Below are positions 12,528 through 59,634 of a stretch of DNA of 64,000 nucleotides, one piece after another; position 1 is the stretch's first letter; each line of letters begins with the position of its first letter. The translations under genes were made by a program, and so were the position numbers. Under the pieces are notes generated by a model. That model was not told the DNA's origin. It worked only from the letters and a program-made list of their open reading frames with translations, and searched no databases. The DNA is from Haliotis asinina (taxonomy: Eukaryota > Mollusca > Gastropoda > Lepetellida > Haliotidae), in contig NC_090288.1 in NCBI RefSeq assembly GCF_037392515.1, positions 10,271,969 to 10,335,968 of the forward strand, written 5' to 3'.

Positions 12528-13694
12528 CTTCAGATGGCAAGATGCGTTGCTACACTTCACGACAAACTCTCGTAGTTGATGTTCTTAGAGTGTTCACTCT
12601 GAATAGTTGCCAGACTTCCTATTTCTAATGTTATAACAAGCGCTGTATTCTGTAAAAGTAATTGTTGAAATTGCCTGGAAGTGTTTTCAAATAAATATTT
12701 CCTGTGGTGGTAATCAGGAAAATAACAAGACAATGTGGAATGACATGTAGTTACCATGGGAGACCAAATAAAATGGAAATTTGGAACCAAATCTTGTAAA
12801 CATTGGCATGATGGCTTTCGTCAGTCAATCACAGGACGTCTTAAAACAGTACATGCGAGAATGTTCCGTATTTTTTGTTTCATTTTGACCATTTCTGAGA
12901 TCGATGTAAATTTGAGGAGGGGTGAGGGGTGTAATGTCGAAAGGGAATCGGAAGTGTTTGCTAACTGTGTGCTGAGTTTATATTTCTAACACGGAGAGCC
13001 AACCAGCGAAACCTACACAATGTGTCGAGTTTCGGAACCCCAGTTGCGGCACAATCAGTAACCTATTCTAGCGGTAATGTATAGGGAGTGAATTGCCGTA
13101 CCTTTGCGTCCGTGGTAAATGGCATTTCGCGGGAAAATGGCTACCATTATCAAGCGAAGTGAAAATGACGTACATACATTAAATGCTTATTTGCTTTACC
13201 CAGAGTCGTGTCTTTTTATAATAGTAAAGGGAAGCAACTCTTGCTGAAACGTGGGTCTTGATTCAGTAGTCCGGATAATTCGCAATCCGGACGAATTTGC
13301 TGAAAAACACAACTATCCGGATTAACGAGGCTTCATTGTACATCTTCTAGTACTGCTACGTGGTAGTTTATTCTGCCTGACGCTGGACAAGGGTTTGATT
13401 ACTACATCACAATTTCTGCGTTACAGAGAAAATGCAATTCCAAATATAACATGTCGTACATTTGACTATGTACTGAATATTAAATCGCATTGTGTATTCA
13501 CATCAAACCTTTGGTTGACTAATCCAACAGTACACAGAGCCAGAGAGGAAATTCAACTGGCGTATTTAGTCTTGGGGTGCAATAGTGTGCAAGACCAACA
13601 ATAACGCCTGGAATCAGGAATGTGTATGCAAAGTGAAAGAGAAACAATTTAACAATAATAGATGCATCAGTACCCATGGATACAACATTCATGG
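12528..13694. other. 3' flank of the IgGFc gene; no further gene
   Basis: The part near 13565-13690 resembles the sequence just after the stop codon of the inverted copy at 44868-44980 (shared TTATTGTTGGTCTTG and AATTGTTT blocks), so the duplication includes the 3' flank. No AATAAA was found close to the stop codon. No other gene was recognised. Confidence 0.5.
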
Positions 13695-16600
13695 CTAAAA
13701 GGCTCTTTTCAGGTGCCTAATTATTCGTGGAATGTCTCCAATGAACATAATAACGCAACACAAAGTGAGAAATGTACAGCCTGTTGCCCCAAAAGTCTTT
13801 GACGAAGGCCTGTCATCAGGCGCACTTATCTTTCTCCTCTTCGCTTTGGACGTTTGGTTTGGGAGGATCCGGAGGTCTGCTTGCAGATACTTTATGATTA
13901 TCTGAAGTTCCTCAAGGGTCATATTCTGATATATATTGTTAGATTCCCCTTGACATGAACAACTTTGTCGCGGGTCCACGTTACCAGCTACCGTTGTTTC
14001 ATCAGCACCTGAAGCGGAGAGAGTTGTGTCCATGCTGATCGTGGTTTCTGCTTCAGTATTTAAAGAAGTGGTAATAGCAGTTGGAGCAGCTCTCGTAGTT
14101 GTGGGCGGAGTTGTCGATGTTGTTGTTGCAGTGGTAGTAGATGTACTGGATGAGGTACTCACAGATGTCGTGATAATGTTTGTGGTAGTAGAATCTGTTG
14201 TGGGTGTCGAAAATGTGCTTGACTGACAATTTGTATTTTTCTCTTTTGTATGAATCCAATTCTGTAAAGAAAGAATATTGAAGTATATTCAGTTTTGTGT
14301 AAATACTTTGTCAGCCTAGCATTTGCAATGCTTCATTTTGCCAGTCAACCCTGAATGAAATCTGAAGGCCCAAACAAAATAAAATGAAAACAGGCTCCAC
14401 TGTAACAATTTCACAATGTTCTGACAAAATCCGTTAGCGAAACCTATGATGCAGAGAGAATTTGGAATTTCTATGAGCAAAGCGCTGAAATACCAGGAGG
14501 TAAATTATCGTAACAAGATGGATCATGGGTGATAAAGATAAAATGTATACATAAGATTCCAGTTGAAAAAATAACAGATACTTTACTCAAGGTCTGCAAA
14601 TATTTCAAACTGTTGGCGCCCCGGCCGGTGGTTATTTCAAAGTGCTTATGAGGCCGTAGGAAGTGCAAAAATGCAGCCTAAAATTTCTATTCGGAGCTAC
14701 TGTCATGATTCTTTAGATCTGATGTTAATGACTTTATCAAGGAAGTAATTGATGTTTGTAGTCCCTTACCTCATTTATTGGAGTTAAATTCATTCCGACT
14801 GCTGAACAGAAGGCACCTGTACCTTTACTCTTCTGGAATATGTATACAGCAAACACATCCCTGACACTTTGTATGACGTAATAGCCTTTGGGAAGAAGAA
14901 TGCATCCAGATGTCATGTTCGTGTGCATGACACTGACCCAGTTCTGTATATCTAGGGGTTGTGAGTTTAGCATTAAAGTTGATTTGAAGGACGAATCAAT
15001 GACGACAATTACATACGCAGAACTCTTTTTGGAAGGAAACCGGAAGCTGTATTGATATTGCCACTGGGTGTTGGGATGAACAATCATCATACAGGGATCA
15101 AAGGTTTTTGTAACTGTCACAAACTTTACGAGCAATATTGCTTCATTCGACGTGACCTCAACAGGATCTGTTGCCGAAATCGTTGTTTCCAACCAGTCCC
15201 CTTCTTTTTCAAGGCGGTAAATTGAACCACCCACATGTACAGTTGTGTTTGGGGTGCTTGCAAGAATGCGATACAGGTCCTTGGATGTGTTCGTCTTTTC
15301 TGGGGAGAGAACGGACACAAAATGTTTCCCCCATGTAGTAACTGGGGTCATCTGTTGCGCAAGGTGATCTTTTGTTTTTGTAGTGTCCAAGTAGGATTTC
15401 TGTGCCCCTGCTATCACAGCAACTGGTTTAGTTGAGGACACATACGTTCCCGTCAGGTCCTTGTCGTTTTGCATCTGAATAACTTCATGCTTCTGTAGGG
15501 TTACATTTATCACACGTGGATTCAGAATGGTGATACCATTATACTGTAATGTAGTCAGACCAGGTGGGAACTCTATGGTTACTGAAGTATCGGCGGATGA
15601 GGACGTCACTGAGAATTGTGTCTTATCATCTTTACTCTGGTATGTCACCACATAGAAACTGTATCCGAATTCCTGAACGGGTAGTGCGAGATATACATCC
15701 ATTGAATCTTCTCCAAAATCCACAGCAAGAACATTAACGTCATTATTAGAAATGATACGTACGACTTTATCCATTATCCCACTCCCTGACAACTGGATGC
15801 CTTCCTCTAGGCAAATGTAACCGCCTTCAGCGCTGGTGATGTTCACAATTTCTGTAAAGTTGATGCTCTGAGACAGACTGGTGACCTGCACAGACGCTAC
15901 GCTCAGAACGGTCGTAATGATGATACATTGTTGTTTTGGCTTGTTGGGATTTAACACATTTTCTGGAAAGGTAACCAGGAATTCCTTTCCGCTGCTGTTG
16001 TTTCCATTTGCTAGGTAATAAAGAGGTATTTTATGTAGAAACGAGTTTCAGTAATAACAGACTCGTACAACTTTCATGATAAAATTGTTCATGTCATGCA
16101 CATATTTAAAAAAATATGAAATATCCAAAGGCTTGAAAATCTTAAACAGATCCAAGCTTGTCGTCTGATTCATTTGTCTATAATTAGTCAACCATGGAGT
16201 CAGTTTAAACCTTTGATCTGACAATTTACTTTCCTCGGGCGTAGTATTGTTATGAAAGTGAGCATTTGTCTCAATATATAAATACTATGACAAACCAGTC
16301 ACCGAAGGCAAGGAAGCACATGTGCCCATTGTACTCCTGTTCCAGGGACGCTGTGTGAACTGCATTTTGTCGTTTTGACAATTCAGCGCTAACAAAGTGC
16401 GAGTTCACCGAAAGATAATCTCATGTTGACATTAAGATGCGATGCGCATTTTATGACCTAACTCAAAAACTGAAATAAAACAGGTGTTAAATTGTGTCTT
16501 TTGTTTGTGCCTGAACAAAATGGTCATCTTTAATGATAAGTCTTATAAATAATAAACTTACACATTCCGAAAGTTTCTACAGGGATGTGAAACATTTGAG

Positions 16601-42380: not shown

Positions 42381-42896
42381 CTTAATCTGTTAAAACAAAA
42401 CAGGCTATACATTGCCAACAACTGAACGTAGATCACCACATTAGGGACCATGGGGACAAAGTGCCTTTGCTTCCTGCACGAACCCTGCCTAAGGTTTACA
42501 CAATCCCTTCAGATGTTCGCAAGTTTTGACAATCTAGCCATAAATTAAAAATTACACAGATACTGTGGTTACATGAGTTGCAAGTATAAATTTAGCTTGA
42601 ACGTTTTGGGACTTACATACCCTCTCAGTATTACAGTCATTTTACGGTACTTTAACTACCTTGAGAACAAGGTCCTAGTATGAAGGATCCTGGAGAATGT
42701 TTTACTCTGTGGTTGAACTCTCAGTCTAAATTAGTCAAATGAATCAGCCGAACGAATCAAATGAATCTATTTAAGTTTTTAAGGGCTTTGAATATATTTA
42801 ATTGAAAAAAAATGTTTGAATTACATTCAATATTTATTTGTGAAAGTTGTACCGATTGAATCTCGTTTCTACATAAAATACCTTTTTATTTCGTAG

Positions 42897-44867
42897 CAAA
42901 TGGAAACAGCAGCAGCGGAAAGGAATTCCTGGTTACCTTTCTAGAAAACAAATTAGAGGTCAACAAGCCAAAACAACAATGTATCATCGTTACGACCGTT
43001 CTGAGCGTAGCGTCTGTGCAAGTCACCAGTCTATCTCAGAGCATCAACTTTACAGAAATTGTGAACACCACTAGCGCTGAAGGCGGATACATTTGTCTAG
43101 AGGAAGGCATCCAGTTGTCAGGGAGTGGGATAATGGATAAAGTCGTACGTATCATTTCTAATAATGACGTTAATGTTCTTGCTGTGGATTTTGGAGAAGA
43201 TTCAATGGATGTATATCTCGCACTACCCGTTGAGGAATTCGGATACAGTTTCTATGTGGTGACATACCAGAGTAAAGATGATAAGACACAATTCTCAGTG
43301 ACGTCCTCATCCGCCGATACTTCAGTAACCATAGAGTTCCCACCTGGTTTGACTACATTACAGTATAATGGTATCACCATTCTGAATCCACGCGTGATAA
43401 ATGTAACCCTACAGAAGCATGAAGTTATTCAGATGCAAAACGACAAGGACCTGACGGGAACGTATGTGTCCTCAACCAAACCAGTTGCTGTAATAGCAGG
43501 AGCACTGAAATCCTCTTTGGACACTACAAAAACAAAAGATCACCTTGCGCAACAGATGACCCCAGTTACTACATGGGGGAAACATTTTGTGTCCGTTCTC
43601 TCCCCAGAAAAAACCAACACATCCAAGGACCTGTATCGCATTCTTGCAAGCACCCCAAACACAACTGTACATGTGGGTGGTTCAATTTACCGCCTTGAAA
43701 AAGAAGGGGACTGGTTGGAAACAAGGGTCTCTGCCACAGATCCTGTTGAGGTCATGTCGAATGAAGCAATATTGGTTGTAAAGTTTGTGACAGTTACAAA
43801 AGCCTTTGGTCCTTGTATGATGATTGTTCATCCCAACACCCAGTGGCAATATCAATACAGCTTCCGGTTTCCTTCCAAAAAGACTTCTGCGTATGTAATT
43901 GTCGTCATTGATTCGTCCTTCAAATCAACTTTAATGCTAACAACCCCTAGATATACAGAACTGGGTCAGTGTCATGCACACGAACCTGACATCTGGATAC
44001 ATTCTTCTTCCCAAAGGCTATTACGTCATACAAAGTGTCAGGGATGTGTTTGCTGTATACATATTCCAGAAGAGTAAAGGTACAGGTGCCTTCTGTTCAC
44101 CAGCCGGAATGAACCTCAAGCTGATCAATGAGGTAAGGGGCTACTGATATAATTACTGTCTATATTAATTGCTTAATTTCCCCATTGCCGTAGAAAATAG
44201 TATCAGATCTGAAGAATCCTGACAGTACTTTCGCATTGAAAGGTAGCCAATCTGGAAAAAACAACACTGAGTAAACTTCAATATTCTTTCTTTGTAGAAT
44301 TGGATTCACACAAAAGAAAACATTACAAATTGTCATCCAAGCACATCGTCGACACCCACAACAGATGTATCTATAACAAAAACGATCACGACATCTGTGA
44401 GTACTTCCACCAGTGCAACTACTACCACTGCAACCACAACATCGAGAACTCTGCCCACAACTACGAGAGCTGTCCCAACCACAAGCACCTTCACTTCTTT
44501 AACTACGAAAGCAGAAACCACGACCAGCATGGATACAACCCTCTCCGCTTCAGGTGCTGATGAAACAACGGTAGCTGGTAACGTGGACCCGCGACAAAGT
44601 TGTTCATGTCAAGGGGAATCTAACAATACATATCAGAATATGACCCTTGAGGAACTTCAGATAATCATAAAGTATCTGCAAGCAGACCTCCGGATCCTCC
44701 CAAACCAAACGTCCAAAGCGAAGAGGAGAAAGATAAGTGCGCCTGATGACAGGCCTTCGTCAAAGACGTTTGGGGCAACAGGCTGTACTTTTCTCACTTT
44801 GTGTTACGTGGCTATTTTTCTTGTAGACATTCCCCTAATAATGAAGCACCTGAGAAGAGTCACGTAG
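42897..44867 (+). pseudogene. IgGFc-binding-domain gene copy, exons 2 and 3, damaged
   Basis: Exon 2 is 42897-44132 (acceptor TTTCGTAG, donor GTAAGG) and exon 3 is 44298-44867 (acceptor TTTGTAG). They match the intact minus-strand gene at about 96 percent of residues over the first 350 codons of exon 2. Exon 2 is 1236 nt against 1241 nt because of a 5-base deletion near 43940 (after LMLT), which shifts the frame and stops it at 44077. Exon 3 stays open for 189 codons, with the Thr/Ser stalk, CSC motif, LEELQIIIKYLQ, KAKRRK and the hydrophobic end. The local signal-peptide exon is missing (see 41030-41210); the nearest one (35185) has a broken donor. It is probably a pseudogene, though a transcript from exon 3 or an assembly error cannot be excluded. 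Confidence 0.88.
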
Positions 44868-44929
44868 TACTGATAGTTGTATCAATGGGTATTTGATTAT
44901 TTAATTGTTTAATTGAAACGGTTGAAGGC

Positions 44930-45960
44930 TTTATTGTTGGTCTTGTGACACTATTCCATTTACAAGATTAAACACGCCAGCTGAATTAACTATTTAGCTC
45001 TGAGCAGTGTTGTACTAATAAGTAACTGTTATGAATACGCAATGAGATTTTGTATTAATAATTTTCAAACAAAATTTATGTTAAATTTGAATTTGTATAC
45101 AATGGTTAACATCTGAAGGGACAGCGTAAATCTTGGATCCATGCAGGTAGCTAAAGTACTGTAAAACCTCAAAGTCCCATGTATGGTGATCTACCAGCAG
45201 TTGTTGCCAGTCTATAGCCCATTTTTCACTTTCCTGACCTCGTTTAAAGTCATGCTAGTTTTAATTCTTGATACTGCGATATTCTAGTTGGTTTACTGAC
45301 CTTCGTTGACAGTTTGCTTTTCATGATTTACATGCATTATGGTCATTTTGAAACTTGTTTTAGTGAAGATATGGCTGAATATTTCCAATGTGACTGTAAA
45401 AAAACCTAACTCACTTCAATTCTTTACAGTCTGTTATCATTACATCTTAGAAAATATGATTATTGGGTTAATGATCTGAAGATCTTGTACGTTCGTAAGT
45501 GATTGATTGTGAGCACATGCCGATCAATTGATGATGGACTTCATGTGTTTTAAGTGTTTCCCTAGCTTGCCATGGTGATTGCCATTAAACCCCAAGCCCT
45601 TCTTTCGATCCTGTCAGTGTTTTACACAAACAATCTACAGCCAAATTCCGTTTCGCCTTTAAGAAAAACGGGACTTAATGCATGAAAACACAGTATTTAT
45701 CGATATTATCGATATTAAGATGACAACACTGCTTGAAATCAAAGAAGTCACATTTGCAACAAAAAAATCAAATATCCGCTGTGCCTTCTTTTTCTTAGTA
45801 CTCCTCGCAAGCCAAAATCAAAGTAATGTATGTACCAACAAGCGCCTATGCGCCAAGAAAAAGTTGCTAATCAGTATAATGAAAGGTTCAAATGGGCAAA
45901 TCGTTATAGCTTTTAACTGTTATTTCAGTGCCTATATACATCAAAATAAAACATAAATAA
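44930..45960 (+). repeat. IgGFc 3' flank, unit D
   Basis: Best preserved copy of the segment also found at 35628-36110 and 30195-30460. It includes a third SINE-type tail near 45368-45420 and an inverted copy of the short dispersed block TAGATCACCATACATGGGA (minus, 45175-45200). Confidence 0.8.
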
Positions 45961-48632: not shown

Positions 48633-51600
48633 CTAGCTGGAACTGTTCTGTACGGTGTAAGAGGGGATGAAAGAGTTGCTTCGACCTTTGTTCAGGCGAA
48701 TGTTGAATTCGTAAGGATAGGGAAGTTTGGGCGCCGATACATCATCGAGGGCCGCCATCTGAAAGAAACCATGAGAATTTAAGGTATTAAGGTATCAGAG
48801 AGGAGAGAGATATCAATTTGTGCATGCCCAGTTTTACTGTTAGACCCGGGTAGCCTTGTACCCTATATAGTGAAGCGTTTGCTAATTTTGTTATAAGTAC
48901 TGTTTAAATTTTCCACATCGATGCCAGTTTTGGTAGTACTACCCTGTCGTTTCTTCCCAAGCGGCATGACCCCATACCCACTCACGCCATTCACATCCGA
49001 TAACCAAAACGATTCCTGTTCAGACATTTAAAAAGGGGTATTGTGGATTAGTGTTGTCCAAAACTAAAGGTGAATTGATTACAGTTAATGCACATTGTTA
49101 AACCAATATCTTCAGATTTGAAAGATAGTCATTGATTAGTGCTAAAAGGCTGAGAATCCTAAATAAACACATCAACTGAATACATCATATTGGAATTCGA
49201 GAAACTAGTAAATAAATATTATTTTAGTAAGCTTTGTAAAGAAGTCTTTTCCTTAGTCACACATGGTCGGAACTGATAACATAAAACCGAAGCTACCTGT
49301 AATGGACAACGAACATTATAAAAATTAAGCGAAACACGAAATGGAAGCGTCGGTTAATTAAGACTGAGACATATAGTGCGGGAATGAATTATAGGTGTTC
49401 AAGAGTACTATACCTTCTAACTAGTGTATAGAGTGAGTTAAGTTTTACGCCTCTTTAGCAATATTACAGCTATAAGATGGCGGGTGACACCACAACTGAG
49501 CAACCGAGCCCGTGTGTTCGGCGTGACCACATCAGAGCATCTAGATATAGACATCGTGAAGTACGTACGTCCTCGGGTGACAATTTCCATCCGTTTGCAG
49601 CGCCCATGTTATCTTCCAGTTGGGCCATCTTGGTTGTCCCGATGAGAACAGATGACACGATGTCCTTCTGGAGAACCCAACGAAGGGCCACTTGGGCCAT
49701 AGACTTGCCTGGAATGTTACAGGTATCAACTTTCCATAATCGTCTCTGATATGGTGAACATTGTTTAGGGGTTGGTATAGTATAAATACAGACAGGTAAG
49801 AATACTCAGCCCATATTTTCATGCATGTTTGTTTGTTGCAGTCTCAAATAATCGAGTCTGGATCAGACAAACCAGCGATCAAAATTACGTGCATCGAGAT
49901 TACGCAAGTAGGTCACGATGGAATGTGTTAACCAAGACAGCGATCACGTCTGTCGCAACTTATGACCAGCTATTAACCGAATGTTCACGGGCCGTTAGCG
50001 AGAAGCAACATCACTTCACCGGAAACCTGATGGCTACATACATTCTAAATAGCCAAACTTACAACTCCGGTTAAATCACAAAAGACTTGTCCACAGTATA
50101 TTACTTCGCATGAGTAAATTATATTGAAAAAGTCTGAAAAGTAATTGCAGTAAAAATCTATTATAAAATTGCATAATGGCCGCTTGTGATCACCATGTTT
50201 CTTTGAAATGCCCTCCAGTGTATCCAGGGTGTTCCATATTTGGTCATCTTGGAGAAGTGAATCCCAAGCAGGCCAGGCCTGTGCCCCAAGTCCTTTCTCC
50301 GCTGCCCAGCCAATCCTGCCCTCTTTGGGGCGGGAATCACGTTTGTACTTGCCCGTCAGCAGACCCCTGAAGAGATTTATATATTTCTTTGTTCATATTA
50401 TCAAGTAAGAAGGAACAGATAGGGTGGCTCGGTGTTGCCCTGTATACATCTCCTTCACTAACATAAAGACAAAAGATGTGTGAAATATGATGAAAGACTG
50501 ATGCAGCAGTCAACATGTTCATCCAGCTATGCACCACTTGCACTATGAAATATTCAGTACTAGTGTAAAAACAATAAATAAGAAATGGAGACCAACTCTA
50601 GAGCAATTTGTTCGTTTTTTATTTGATCTTGGAATACATTCTGATGATTCCTCTGTTGATTGTTATTGATCTTGTATTATTTCATAAGACGTTTTGGTCT
50701 TTTTTTCGTATTGAGTAGAACGTAATTTCGACCTACCAACCCATTTCATTTATAAATCAATTTCAAGAAATATCACTTTTATGTAGCCTTGAGTTGTTCT
50801 AGGTTGTCAATTTAATCACACTTATATCTGAATCACTATAACATTGACAAAAAAGGTATGGGAGGTCGGAGATTCTCTTCAGCATTTCAGATGAACGCTA
50901 CCATCTTGACTCAGAGGCAAAATGTATTGAAACATGGAACTATTTCTTTGGTAAAATTGTGAATGATGTTTTGGATTTGAACCAGACAAAGAGTGTTAGA
51001 ATGATGGACCCAGCATTTTTTGTTTGCACTGAGGGCAAAGAGCGGGACATATTCCAGACATTGGCTCGCTGTGTTTACTTTAAAATGTCAGACAGCCAGA
51101 CACTTATTATTTCCATTCAATGCAGCCTTAAGAAGTCACAAAGAACACCTCTGTTCATCGTTCTGGAACCAGTTCGATATGACACGCCGAGTGGAACACG
51201 GCAGACAGAGCTGTTTGTACGTCTCAGAGTTCTACCTTGCTACGTGACGTTGCTCGCCGGTTTCAAAGAGACAGTATTTGCCACTTATGGAGACGTTTTC
51301 ATGGAAGAGATCGAGCTATAATATCTCGTAACTAATGCTCCATCGAAACACTTACGCCTTCAATGGACTCCATGGTAAGACACCCATACCGTTAGCTTTA
51401 CACACTTGGAAAGCCTCGAGCTCCGAGTCCCGGCTAACAAGACTGTATTGTTGCTGTTGAACAAAGTAGGACTGTGTAGCTTTTGAAACTTGCATTGCCT
51501 CTGTGTCATGGGGTTAGCATGCAGAACATATGTTTAAACTAAACTTAAAGATAGCAGATCAATACAGTGCCTTCAGATCACTTGATCAAAGTTGCTAAGA

Positions 51601-54600
51601 CTGCAAATGGCGACCGACCGGTACTCAAATGTTCCCCATGGATCAAACAGTTAGGTTTCTCAGTTCTCGGTGTGTGTGTGTGTGTTTTTGTTGTTGTTGT
51701 TGTTCGTTTGTTTATTTGTTTTTGCGAGTTTGTCAGCTCTGACTGTTCTTAACTTTCGTAAGTCGTAAATGTCAGTTTGGTTTTTTCAATGAATTAAATG
51801 GACACAAACATGGTCTTTGGATCATGTAACGCTTCTCAAGCCTCTTACCACAGTAAGTAGCCACGAGCAAGTGAGCCATCAGTGTCCCTTCTGTAATACT
51901 CTCTCTTACTGAGCAGAGAAACGTTTAATCGTATGCATGACACGCACGATACCTGTAAACTGATGAAGGGATTTGTCCCCATCATTTGGGTGATGTCGAC
52001 CAGACGCTGCATCTGCCAACCCAACATGTTGCTGGCCCCAATATATCTGACCTTGCCACACCGGACAAGGTCATCTAGCGTCCGCACGGTCTCCTCAACA
52101 GGTGTAGCGTTGTCCCACAGATGCATCTACAACGTCACAACTGCAGTTACATAATTACGGTGGAATCTCATGTTTAATATCGCTCTTGGTATGACCATAG
52201 TACCCAGAACACCGAAATTTACTTCATGTAATCCATGCCATGTAATTCTTACATTTCCATAAACCGTTTCGAATACCTTAACATCAACTAATAGAGACAT
52301 ATCAAATACATTTAGTGGCAAACAAGGATACGTTCACCACCGACCTGACAATTAACCCGTATAAAGCATATATGTCTACCGCCCACTGGCGCATGCCATT
52401 GTAAGCGAATGGGGCCCAGCTTGTCCGAGATCAATTGTAGTGCGATGTGTGAAGCGCGCGCACTAGCTTTCATCTGCTCCACCTTCCACAAACCAAATGG
52501 GTTTGCTCATTACCCGCCTACTTCTCGAAAACGCGTTCTCTGCTCCGGTCCAACTTATTCTTCTTTGCCAGTATAAATATATATAGAAATAAGCAGTTAA
52601 GGTTTCCAGAGTATGCTAAGGTCTTGAAAAACCTAGACATAAATTGGAATGAACCATGGTTCGAATCCACGATCAGAGCACCCTGATGTCAACAAGTAGC
52701 TTAACTCTGCAGAGCGAACTTGAAGTGGTGCGGCCAGCTGGGTTGTTTAATGGAATGTCATTTATTGAAATCCAGCTGGGGATGGCATATATCTGACCCT
52801 GTCTCACCTGGTACAGATCGACCCGTGAAGGTCCCGGGGTAGAATAGGCCTTCAGCAACCCATGCTTGCCATAAAAGGCGACTCAGCTTGTCGTAAGAGG
52901 TGACTAACGGGATCGGGTGGTCAGGCTCGCTGACTTGGTTGACACATGTCATCAGTTCCCAATTGCGCAGATCGATGCTCATGTTGTTGATCACTGGAGT
53001 GTCTGGTCCAGACTCGATTATTTACAGACCGCTGCCATATAGCTGTAATATTGCTGAGTGCGGCGTAAAACTAAACTCACTCACTCACTCACCTGGTACA
53101 GATCCACATAGTCGGTTTGGAGCCTCTCCAGGCTGTTCTGAATGCTCTCCACGAGGTGGCGTCTGCTTAGTCCAACACTGTTCGGGTTGTCAGCAGACAT
53201 CGGGAACCGCACTTTAGTCGCAATCACAAACCTTTCCCTCTCTTGTCTGAAACAGTGAGTGGGTGATGAGACAATTTGAGGAGCAGTACGCCTAATCTTT
53301 GGTCATAGGACCTGTTCGACGCAATGCACCGGTCACACAAATAACACGCAGGGTGTATCCAGCATCATAATGAATTCAAGAACAACGTTCATGATCAAAG
53401 TCTTTCACAGAAAATTTAGACTAACTTCTTCAACCAGTTGCCCAATATCGATTCCGACTTTCCACTGGAATAAGCGTCTGCAGTGTCGATGAAGTTGCCG
53501 CCCCACTCCACGTATCTGTCCAGGATCTTGTGAGCCAACTCCTCGCTCGTCTGGCCCCACATTCCCATCTGAAGATAGGAGAAAGAGTGAGAGATTTTAT
53601 GGTTTACACCGCCCCCAGCAATTCTCCAGCTATATGGCTGTGGTCTGTAAGTAATCGAGTCTGGACCAGACAACCCAGTGATGAACAGCATTACATGTGT
53701 CAAACCAGGTCTGCGAGCCTGCGAGACCATTCTAACATCCCCCATTAGTCGCCTCTTACGACAAGCATAGTCACCTTTTGTGGCAAGCATTGGTTGCTGA
53801 AGACCTATTCTACCCCGGATCTTCACGGGTCTCAAACTGAAGAAGAAGAGGTGTCATGCAGTGGGCAATTATTTGGGCTCGCTCGTCTTTGACCAGAGCT
53901 ACAGTTGTAAAGTGGTCGGATAGATTTAAGCAACAAGAACGTTCAAAATGACGCCTGCAGAAGAGTTTACATGTTTCCACCTTGCACGTCTTAATGATGA
54001 GGGACCATAAGTGTATTACCCATCCATATTTACTATAAAGCCATGAGGTAGAACTGGTCTTCCGTAATCGTATCCCAAATGCCTAGATCGATGCTCATGC
54101 TCTTGATCACTGGAGGTAGACAAGCCGCTAATGCTCCTCACTCCGACGGCCCGAGTTCGATTCCCAATGATTGGCACATTATATGAAGCCCATCTCTGGT
54201 TTCCCCGACAGCCAGATTGACGAAATAGTGCTATATGAGGCGTAAATCTTAATTCACACACCAACACTTAACAACCTTGCTATCGAACAACCACTCATCT
54301 TCCAGGAAACATGGGACGTTGGGATAGCGTAACAGAGATAACTCTTGACGCCGTAGACCCGAGTTCGATTCCTCACATGGGTAAAATGTGTGAAGCCCGT
54401 TTCTGGTTTCCCCAGCCGTGTCAACTACCCGTAACAGCCCCGACAAGCATAAAATTTATCTACGTTGAATAAGGGTTATCTCCCTTGGAAATAGAATCTA
54501 AATGACACGGCACGTCGCCTTTACTGCCGTTTTAGATATCATTTCAGTTACTTCATGGCTGGCCAACTTGAGGGAAGACAACCTCAAGTGATACAAGTCT

Positions 54601-56141
54601 CAGATGCTTACCACCTAGGTATAACCAAAAATGTATATACGTCTTTGGTGTAACGAATACGGGTGCAGGAAAACCCGAATCTTAAGCCTCATATGCGTAC
54701 ATGTTTAACGTAACAAAATAGCAACATCTCGCAGCCCGCATGTTGATTTATTTGAATGTTCCATAAAACAAGAAATTCATGCATCGATACACTGAGTTCG
54801 AGGTGACAACCATTCATCCAACATTGACATAGCGGCCATGGGGAACAGTAACAGGTGTGCCAGAAGCCTGCCATCTGCTTGAATCGTGTTCCTGCTGTAA
54901 ATATTTTTGTAGTGATTTACTATCTGTGGCACGATATGTTTTCCAGGGTCACTGTGAAGTCTTTGGGTTGTGTTTTTACATCCACATTTATCTTGCATCC
55001 ATGCTCCTGTTATCGCAGACATGATAAAAAAAATATAGGTCAGTTGTTATGATCGTGACCGTTAGCATTATTGCTTGTCTTGCCTGGCCTTGACCAACTA
55101 AATAATGATCATCACACCGCTCCGTTTACGGGACAGCGTTCTCATCAGGGTAAACCATATCCTTCGGTTTTTTAAACAAGGAACGAGTAAATGTTTGCTT
55201 TATATGCTGGTTGTTCTGAAAGGAAACTGTCAACACGTTTCTTTAAAGAAAAAAATGTGACATGATGCCGCGACTGTATCTTCTGTTAGTTACCAAATGT
55301 TTCTTGAACTTTTCCGGAGTCCAGGGACTCCCTTTCAACACTCACATACTAACCAGTAACAGTGTCTACAATTTGTATCATTTCACTGAGTGCTGTTACA
55401 TCGCTTCATATCTGCATCGGGTAGACCTTAAAGTACATCAAGGTCACGCCCTTACGTGCACGCGGGTGCATGTAATCCGCTGTTGTGAAGATGTCGACTA
55501 TGGCGTTCACTTGTGTCTGAGCCGTGATGACCTTGACCTGCTTCACCACCGAACGTCTCTATCTAGTTTTCGGTAATCATGTGTGATGAAAATCTCCTAC
55601 CACCCGTCCTCTTGAAACATCAAAACCAGGGGCGGATATAGCTGTTTTAGAAAGGGGTGCGCACTTCAGCAAAGGGGGTGGGGTGAGGGAGATAGCGCAG
55701 TTCATTTACACACATTCTCTAAGTGTTTCAATGACCATTTAGTAAACTTGCAGGACAAAAGGCGGATGCGTACTATTGCACCCCACCACCACCCCACCAC
55801 CACGCCACCCCACCCTACACCATCCCACCACCTACACCCTCTATATATGCCTATGGAAGCCATAACAAACATATAATTACACATTATATTTTAATTAAAT
55901 GACATTCCTGTTAATCCAAATGTATCAAAATTGTAAATGCATGGTATAACCAATATATATATTAACATAGTGAGTAAATACAGGTAAAATTATTCAATTT
56001 TTAACATGTGGCATAAACTGTTGGTATACATACCTTGTTTTCTCCAAATGTCATCGTTCCGAGGCAAATATTAGACACTTTCAGTCCAGACTTGCCGAGA
56101 AATTTGTAAACCACTTTGGATTCGTCTGGAACCACCGCCAT
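48633..56141 (-). CDS. aldo-keto reductase (AKR superfamily, KCNAB/YajO-like branch), 8 exons
   Basis: Minus-strand exons: 56034-56141, 53426-53568, 53093-53246, 51953-52126, 51356-51453, 50194-50366, 49569-49708, 48633-48758. All introns are GT-AG and phases agree, giving 371 residues from an ATG in good context (ACAATGG) to TAG. It has the (beta/alpha)8 AKR pattern: [20 protein letters not shown] at the start, [14 protein letters not shown] (D64, Y69), FVIATKVRF (K95), DYVDLYQMHLWD (H137), [47 protein letters not shown] for NADPH binding, and [10 protein letters not shown] near the end. All four catalytic residues are present. Such enzymes reduce carbonyls with NADPH in the cytosol; the substrate is unknown. 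Length fits the family. No stop or frameshift was found. SINEs abut the splice sites of exons 2 and 3 (separate entries). Confidence 0.94.
49431..49540 (-). mobile_element. SINE-B fragment in reductase intron 7
   Basis: GAGTGAGTTAAGTTTTACGC, AGCAATATTACAGC and GTGTTCGGCGTGACCAC are SINE-B blocks in minus order. It lies about 30 bp beyond the donor of exon 7. Confidence 0.75.
49840..49970 (-). mobile_element. SINE-A fragment in reductase intron 6
   Basis: AATAATCGAGTCTGGATCAG, CCAGCGATCAA, GTGTTAACCAAGACAGCGA and CGCAACTTATGACCAGC match the SINE-A middle; both ends are missing. Confidence 0.8.
50367..51355. other. reductase intron 5 with an antisense open frame
   Basis: A 120-codon plus-strand frame at 50959-51321 lies antisense within this intron. 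Its product has no recognised domain, no signal peptide and no partner copy in the window. It may be chance or the remnant of an unknown element. Confidence 0.3.
52821..53087 (+). mobile_element. SINE-A inserted at the donor of reductase exon 3
   Basis: Full-length SINE-A, antisense to the gene. It is flanked by perfect 17-bp direct repeats CTCACCTGGTACAGATC at 52803-52819 and 53088-53104. Read on the gene strand, the repeat is the last 12 nt of exon 3 (GATCTGTACCAG) plus donor GTGAG, so the insertion duplicated the exon end and its splice donor. The donor next to the exon now continues into the SINE tail (GTGAGTGAGTGAG), while the original donor context (GTGAGACAGG) is stranded 285 bp downstream. 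Confidence 0.95.
53585..53832 (-). mobile_element. SINE-A next to the acceptor of reductase exon 2
   Basis: Near full-length SINE-A in the same orientation as the gene. Its tail (CTCTCACTCTTTCTCC on the gene strand) lies directly before the acceptor TATCTTCAG of exon 2 and so provides the pyrimidine tract. CTGAAGA plus purine-rich sequence on both sides (53569-53583 and 53837-53851) may be a diverged target-site duplication that includes the acceptor. Confidence 0.88.
54049..54115 (+). mobile_element. SINE-A fragment in reductase intron 1
   Basis: CCTAGATCGATGCTCATGCT and TTGATCACTGGA are SINE-A blocks; the following SINE-B cuts it off. Confidence 0.7.
54112..54260 (+). mobile_element. SINE-B-like copy
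   Basis: GGAGGTAGACAAGCCGCTAA, B box GAGTTCGATTCCC, GAAGCCCATCTCTGGTTTCC and a GCGTAAATC-type tail. Sequence differs from the main SINE-B, probably a subfamily shared with the next entry. Confidence 0.7.
54313..54425 (+). mobile_element. SINE-B-like copy
   Basis: GACCCGAGTTCGATTCCTCA holds the B box, followed by GAAGCCCGTTTCTGGTTTCC. Same subfamily as 54112-54260. Confidence 0.7.
54470..55860. other. reductase intron 1, no further exon recognised
   Basis: A 104-codon plus-strand frame (55262-55576) is antisense to the gene and has no recognised domain. It contains two perfect TCAAGGTCA sites in opposite orientation (55438-55446 plus, 55528-55536 minus). 55780-55845 is a C-rich CCACC tract. 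Confidence 0.5.
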
Positions 56142-58890: not shown

Positions 58891-59634
58891 AAGTGGATAC
58901 TCGGCAGTGTGACATCAAGGTGATATTCCCAGTGTAGGCTCGGCAGTGTGACATCAAGGTCATATTCCTAGTGGATGGTGGGCAGTGAGACATCAAGGTA
59001 ATATTCCCAGTGGAGGCTCTGCAGTGTGGCATCAAGGTAACATTCCCAGTGGAGGCTCGGCAGTGTGACATCAAGGTGATATTCCCAGTGGAGGCTCGGC
59101 AGTGTGACATCAAGGTGATATTCCCAGTGGAGGCTCGGCAGTGTGATATCAAGGTGATATTCCTAGTGGATGGTCGGCAGTGAGACATCAAGGTCATATT
59201 CCCATTGGAGGCTCGGCAGTGTGACATCAAGGTGATATTCCCAGTGGAGGCTCCGCAGTGTGATATCAAGGTGACATTCCTAGTGGATGGTCGGCAGTGT
59301 GACATCAAGGTCATATTCCCAGTGGAGGCTCGGCAGTGTGACATCAAGGTAACATTCCCAGTGGAGGCTCGGCAGTGTGACATCAACGTCATATTCCCAG
59401 TGGAGGCTCGGCAGTGTGACATCAAGGTAATGTGTGACATCAAGGTAATATTCCCAGTGGAGGCTCGGCAGTGTGACATCAAGGTAATGTGTGACATCAA
59501 GGTAATATTCCCAGTGGAGGCTCGGCAGTGTGGCATCAAGGTAGCATTCCCAGTGGAGGCTCGGCAGTGTGACATCAAGACAATATTCCCAGTGGAGACT
59601 CGGCAGTGTGACATCAAGGTAATATTCCCAGTGA
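58891..59634 (+). repeat. 39-bp minisatellite, ~18 copies
   Basis: The unit contains GAGGCTCGGCAGTGTGACAT then CAAGGTRATATTCCCAGTG. Because 39 is divisible by three, frames stay open on both strands (13-residue repeats such as SHCRASTGNITLM on minus). Two units carry an extra 18-bp partial repeat near 59428 and 59485. The frames are artefacts of the repeat. Some units contain a perfect TCAAGGTCA. Confidence 0.97.

Follow-up and report, generated by a model that had tools for sequence, protein, structure and literature searches.

The aldo-keto reductase gene and the SINE at its exon 3 border

The window, the whole 64,000-nucleotide stretch of Haliotis asinina DNA analysed here, carries an intact aldo-keto reductase gene of eight exons on the minus strand, which join in frame without stop codons. 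The coding part of exon 1 lies at 56034 to 56141 and is followed by exon 2 (53426 to 53568), exon 3 (53093 to 53246), exon 4 (51953 to 52126; MHLWDN...PFISLQ), exon 5 (51356 to 51453), exon 6 (50194 to 50366), exon 7 (49569 to 49708) and the coding part of exon 8 (48636 to 48758), which ends in NSSS and a stop codon. Exons 1 to 7 were placed by their in-frame joins, and exons 3 and 4 also by structural relatives; exon 8 was placed by translation and by the Pfam and structure matches of the whole product, amino acids 331 to 371 having been read off the translations and then located at 48758 to 48636. The product of 371 amino acids matches the Pfam family Aldo_ket_red (PF00248, E = 9.5e-82) over residues 25 to 337 of 371, the span of a whole-protein domain, and its best solved relative is 7utf (E = 5.7e-93). 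Exon 3 ends in ...GTGGATCTGTACCAG and exon 4 starts with ATGCATCTG, and the spliced junction YVDLYQ/MHLWDN (the slash marking the border, here and below) aligns without gaps to two solved aldo-keto reductases. Three lines of evidence fix the exon 3 border: this gap-free junction, the Pfam match and seven paralogues whose exon 3 ends at the corresponding codon. A search of the window for exons of other aldo-keto reductase paralogues gave only weak matches, with E values of 1.7 and above. Elsewhere the window carries an inverted duplicate of an IgGFc-binding-domain gene, at 13476 to 16180 on the minus strand and 42732 to 45056 on the plus strand, with two blocks that are 92% and 82% identical; the plus-strand copy diverges from the other near the end of its longest open frame, as if by a frame change.

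At the exon 3 border, a 268-bp, ACTC-tailed SINE body (52820 to 53087, plus strand) lies antisense to the gene between two exact copies of the 17-bp target-site duplication (TSD) CTCACCTGGTACAGATC, at 52803 to 52819 and 53088 to 53104. The TSD consists of the last 12 nucleotides of exon 3 plus the intronic pentanucleotide GTGAG, the 3' end of the exon reading GATCTGTACCAG/GTGAG on the minus strand. One copy remains attached to exon 3, and the other, displaced into the intron, carries the copied exon end followed by GTGAG, part of the ancestral donor GTGAGA (whose GT lies at 52807 to 52806). The exon-side donor (53087 to 53092, minus strand) takes its first five nucleotides from the duplicated target and reads GTGAGT because its sixth base now comes from the SINE tail. 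A chance repeat was rejected as an explanation for the TSD, given the exactness of the repeat and a crude flank test in which none of 4,000 shuffled flanks reached its score, against 3 and 4 of 4,000 random flanks, which were drawn from the same window and so could include the true site. The original prediction had described this arrangement, and it is borne out: the composition of the TSD follows from the exact repeat and an exon border placed by translation, the two candidate donors are 285 bp apart as measured from one copy start to the next, and the antisense ACTC tail can be read directly as GTGAGT repeats extending the donor beside the exon. The insertion of a SINE with duplication of an exon end and its donor is thus a real and well-explained event, of a known kind but in an unusual place. 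Among the titles and abstract openings listed by the literature searches, at most 20 for each, none reported an exon end and donor copied by a SINE.

The element behaves as a SINE in each respect considered. It is short and dispersed with many similar copies, 42 matches being found on many contigs, of which 40 are near full length at 96 to 100% identity, this copy included (40 of 1,958 first-look candidates were scored). Its copies have a simple-repeat 3' tail of ACTC units, and 31 matches start inside the consensus, representing either 5'-truncated copies or a related family with the same 3' end. They are flanked by TSDs of variable sequence, with exact TSDs of at least 9 nucleotides in 39 of 82 3'-complete matches. 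Several further copies and fragments of the family occur in the window, and the copy in the aldo-keto reductase gene is the least diverged of seven window copies (7 differences in 262 positions from their leave-one-out consensus). The tail pattern gave 0 matches in viral and prokaryote collections. Two SINE copies in opposite orientation adjoin a tandem array (58892 to 59633) in which a 39-bp unit occurs 19 times and which lies inside a frame open for more than 300 codons on the minus strand.

Age of the border and its duplication in paralogues

A protein search of the same 1.14-Gb assembly placed paralogues of the gene on C9, C14, C4 and C13, and all seven exon 3 matches listed besides the window's own were examined, each with roughly 100 nucleotides beyond the exon. 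All seven (7/7) share the codon at which exon 3 stops, and a phase-0 donor follows it (GTGAGT in four paralogues, and GTTGGT, GTACAA and GTATAC in the other three); in none of the seven does a SINE lie at the border within these pieces. The insertion therefore postdates intron 3 and its border. This bears on the possibility that the intron or its border was created by the SINE and was not already there when it inserted. Work on introners (PMC9860276) describes transposons whose duplications provide splice sites, but an insertion that creates an intron does not account for the same intron position and phase in seven paralogues without the element at the border, and the SINE is followed by about 680 bp of intron free of SINE matches, with its own acceptor. 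Intron creation by the SINE, to which we assign a negligible probability, was accordingly rejected as contradicted by the paralogues. The original prediction that the insertion hit an exon-intron border is thus upheld, since the TSD carries both exon end and donor and the same border exists without a SINE. Its further claim, that splicing was left apparently workable, finds indirect support in the eight stop-free exons with exact frame joins, the full-length family match and the border shared with the SINE-free paralogues. In one paralogue (C9:10919540-10919800), what by eye seems to be the 3' end of an old, antisense SINE lies about 45 nucleotides past the exon 3 donor, within the intron.

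In three C9 paralogues a 35-bp unit, GTGGATCTGTACCAGGTGAGTACTGACTGTAGTGT, which consists of the exon 3 end and the donor, repeats into intron 3. At 10.926 Mb about 1.5 units were counted by eye, Tandem Repeats Finder reporting no array there; the other two genes have 8.5 units (10.954 Mb) and 98.0 units (10.941 to 10.944 Mb). In the last of these genes (C9:10940620-10944420) most of intron 3 is taken up by the array, which spans 3.4 kb with about 98 units, and exon 4 lies beyond it; among the 96 units in register, CAG/GTGAGT is present in 57, CAG/GT in 77 and GT at the donor position in 95. In the paralogue with 8.5 units (C9:10953560-10954080), 7/9 read CAG/GTGAGT. All 38 genomic occurrences of a 23-base pattern taken from the unit fall within these three C9 genes. 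Because the unit comprises the exon 3 end and the donor, the border that a SINE copied in the window's gene has been duplicated as a minisatellite in its relatives, the two duplications being noted here simply side by side. A small literature search (titles and abstract openings) found no report of a comparable donor minisatellite. The tolerance of extra donors in these genes fits predicted use of the first donor, and the paralogue in which the real donor is followed by dozens of identical copies of the consensus offers a natural experiment on how the spliceosome chooses a 5' splice site.

The two donors and the predicted transcript

The exon-side donor now reads CAG/GTGAGTGAG, in full GTGAGTGAGTGAGTGAG, and the displaced donor, 285 bp further on, reads CAG/GTGAGA. 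With a generic donor matrix that is not fitted to this species, the exon-side donor scores 8.51 bits and the displaced donor 6.89 bits, ranking first and second among the 73 GT sites between the start of exon 3 and exon 4; by the same matrix, the tail registers at +4, +8 and +12 score only 1.22. Pairing with the 5' end of U1, likewise generic, gives a duplex of -11.9 kcal/mol for the exon-side donor versus -11.1 kcal/mol for the displaced one. The two donors are therefore not equal, the exon-side donor scoring higher by both the generic matrix and the generic U1 end.

Use of the exon-side donor would leave the mRNA unchanged, whereas use of the displaced donor would insert 285 nucleotides, through which the frame reads YQVSE and then a TGA stop codon. 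It is conceivable that some transcripts are spliced from the displaced donor at 52807, so that the antisense SINE and one TSD copy are kept in the mRNA, since CAG/GTGAGA is still a strong donor by the generic matrix and the inserted length of 285 is a multiple of three. Nevertheless, the early stop would cost the product about 63% of its length and make the mRNA a likely target for decay, and the exon-side donor is both stronger and nearer; we consider such partial retention unlikely. The displaced CAG/GTGAGA could also act as an AG/GT site in nested or recursive splicing, the SINE being removed first as a 285-nucleotide intron and the old intron later. An AG/GT arises automatically where a duplication spans a donor, the final mRNA would again be unchanged, and the site is preceded by 8/16 pyrimidines and a TTCAC at -19, by a crude count no worse than the real exon 6 acceptor (8/16). 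Against this, the pyrimidine tract is weak and single-step splicing is simpler, and we regard a two-step removal as very improbable. Judged from sequence, the gene probably still splices correctly, and single-step splicing most likely uses the exon-side donor.

Tail-target microhomology, proposed mechanism and comparison with known systems

The insertion sites of the family were compared in the window and in 39 loci drawn from the best-scoring genome matches and their surroundings (7; 20 of about 10 kb; 12 of 800 bp), a sample that leans towards copies that are young, full length and similar to the query. The 82 3'-complete matches comprise 43 without and 39 with an exact TSD of at least 9 nucleotides, and in 8 of the latter the bases before the TSD are not a clean ACTC repeat, making them unscorable (some seem by eye to have low overlap) and leaving 31. 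The start of the target continues the ACTC repeat by at least 1 nucleotide in 31/31 sites, at least 2 in 28/31, at least 3 in 16/31, at least 4 in 6/31 and 5 in 3/31. The corresponding figures for random window sites, from at least 1 to at least 5 nucleotides, are 43.5, 15.8, 5.3, 1.6 and 0.5%, in agreement with a null from the fetched loci, and the binomial P for an overlap of at least 2 nucleotides is about 1e-19. The aldo-keto reductase copy, with an overlap of 5, is among the 31; without it the first four counts become 30/30, 27/30, 15/30 and 5/30, and when the eight unscorable copies are set to zero overlap they become 31/39, 28/39, 16/39 and 6/39. These data supersede an earlier, post hoc test on four copies.

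Both ends of the target show a preference. Among 30 hand-listed TSDs, 24 end in TC and 16 in ATC, directly before the SINE head GAC, and four of the 30 sites start with TCAC or CTCAC, which is 25 times the genomic TCAC rate (3/29 without the copy studied here); the aldo-keto reductase site has both the TC end and a start of this type. Of the 36 TSD-bearing matches with a complete 5' end, 22 have T directly before the site and 24 have C as the second target base, which gives a consensus site of roughly T/TCA...ATC/. At such a site the primer strand ends in TGA or GTGA and is able to pair with the tail RNA. Given the overlap between tail and target, a GTGAG donor is thus a natural place for priming, and the tail then restores it; because this donor provides such a primer end on the sense strand of the gene, the insertion comes to lie antisense and the tail rewrites GTGAGT. 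An endonuclease preference for T/TC sites would give similar overlap without annealing and could contribute. What is new here is the tail-target microhomology across the insertions of this SINE.

Very probably, an ACTC-tailed SINE entered the existing exon 3/intron 3 border by target-primed reverse transcription, and the tail-completed exon-side donor is the one used. In this scheme, insertion would have taken place in a working gene, with its sense strand, ending in ...CAGGTGAG, as the priming strand, the 3' end of which would pair with CTCAC in the (ACTC)n tail RNA. A staggered cut would then have duplicated the 17 bp, leaving exon 3 with its own end and GTGAG, while the SINE tail would have supplied the rest of a perfect GTGAGT donor and the old donor would have been pushed 285 bp into the intron. 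Splicing from the exon-side donor would remove the SINE together with intron 3, so that the mRNA stays as it was. Four observations underlie the scheme: the 17-bp duplication, the structure of the gene, the presence of the border in paralogues that lack a SINE at it, and the tail-target microhomology; from these we infer the annealing step and the choice of donor. Plausibly, then, the tail both guided the insertion and repaired the donor.

We tentatively extend this scheme to a general hypothesis of donor-seeking, self-healing SINEs, although the chances are rather against it. ACTC-tailed SINEs might be pre-adapted to splice sites, their tail steering them to GTGA-ending strands, GTGAGT donors included, and rebuilding the donor, so that hits on donors would tend to heal themselves; sense copies may bring a branch-like CTCAC motif and pyrimidines to acceptors; and the exon 3 border would be a recurrent duplication spot in this gene family, additional donors being tolerated there because the exon-side donor outcompetes them. 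In the genome, exact junctions between the tail and CACCTG (antisense CAG/GTG) number 18 with three tail repeats and 14 with four, the latter including the one in the aldo-keto reductase gene, against 0 for reversed controls. At these 32 junctions, which cover three or four tail repeats plus CACCTG, a crude check of open frames ending at CAG (with only about 60 codons examined at 12 of the 32) gave evidence of a host exon only at the aldo-keto reductase gene. A Pfam search at E values up to 1 with ten peptides from nine junction loci gave three matches far below the cut-offs (DDE_3 transposase, 0.01; Phage_blade, 0.095; UBA_RNF31, 0.15) and none for the other seven; several open frames of 40 to 63 codons without a Pfam match could be exons. 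No excess of surviving insertions at coding donors was found among the 32 junctions, a weak negative. As for acceptors, a second, older SINE of a related kind (53585 to 53831, minus strand) is oriented in the sense direction of the gene, and its tail ends about 16 nucleotides upstream of exon 2. Within the last 40 nucleotides of intron 1, the single match to YTNAY (a generic consensus not fitted to this species) is a CTCAC in this tail, with its A at -20. The branch point of the exon 2 acceptor, along with some of its pyrimidine tract, may come from this tail. An old TSD across that acceptor was also considered for this SINE and rejected as not established, its score being reached by 2 to 8% of random or shuffled flanks. 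The hypothesis ties the sequence of the tail both to where a SINE lands and to whether the hit does harm, and it is testable genome-wide in any species with ACTC-tailed SINEs.

Parts of this arrangement have counterparts elsewhere. Hellsten and colleagues reportedly described in 2011 intron gain by tandem duplication of AGGT, in which duplication of an AG/GT segment gives a GT...AG unit. There the duplication is said to yield a new unit of this kind, whereas here the duplicated AGGT sits at an existing border. In introners and other introns made by transposable elements (PMC9860276), the TSD can likewise supply a 5' splice site beside the element; these elements, however, create new introns, in most cases probably by DNA transposition, whereas here the intron pre-existed. 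With respect to the tail, there is a likeness to the Bov-B LINE and the Sauria SINE (PMC13295347), in which the first target nucleotide continues a microsatellite-like 3' tail, an observation explained there by nicking and priming. In that system the continuation is one nucleotide (A or T), with a run of T about 10 nucleotides upstream, whereas here it is usually 2 to 5 nucleotides of the ACTC repeat, and a per-position table of the 36 sites is clear only for T at -1 (22/36). Finally, in canine merle an antisense SINE with a 15-bp TSD lies at an exon-intron boundary of PMEL17 (PMC7349775). It resembles the aldo-keto reductase insertion in its antisense element at a border, an original splice site that is still usable and a repetitive tail that decides splicing. 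The merle insertion is at an acceptor, however, where a longer tail diverts splicing to a cryptic acceptor and so harms the protein (PMC7349775), whereas the insertion described here is at a donor that the tail completes.
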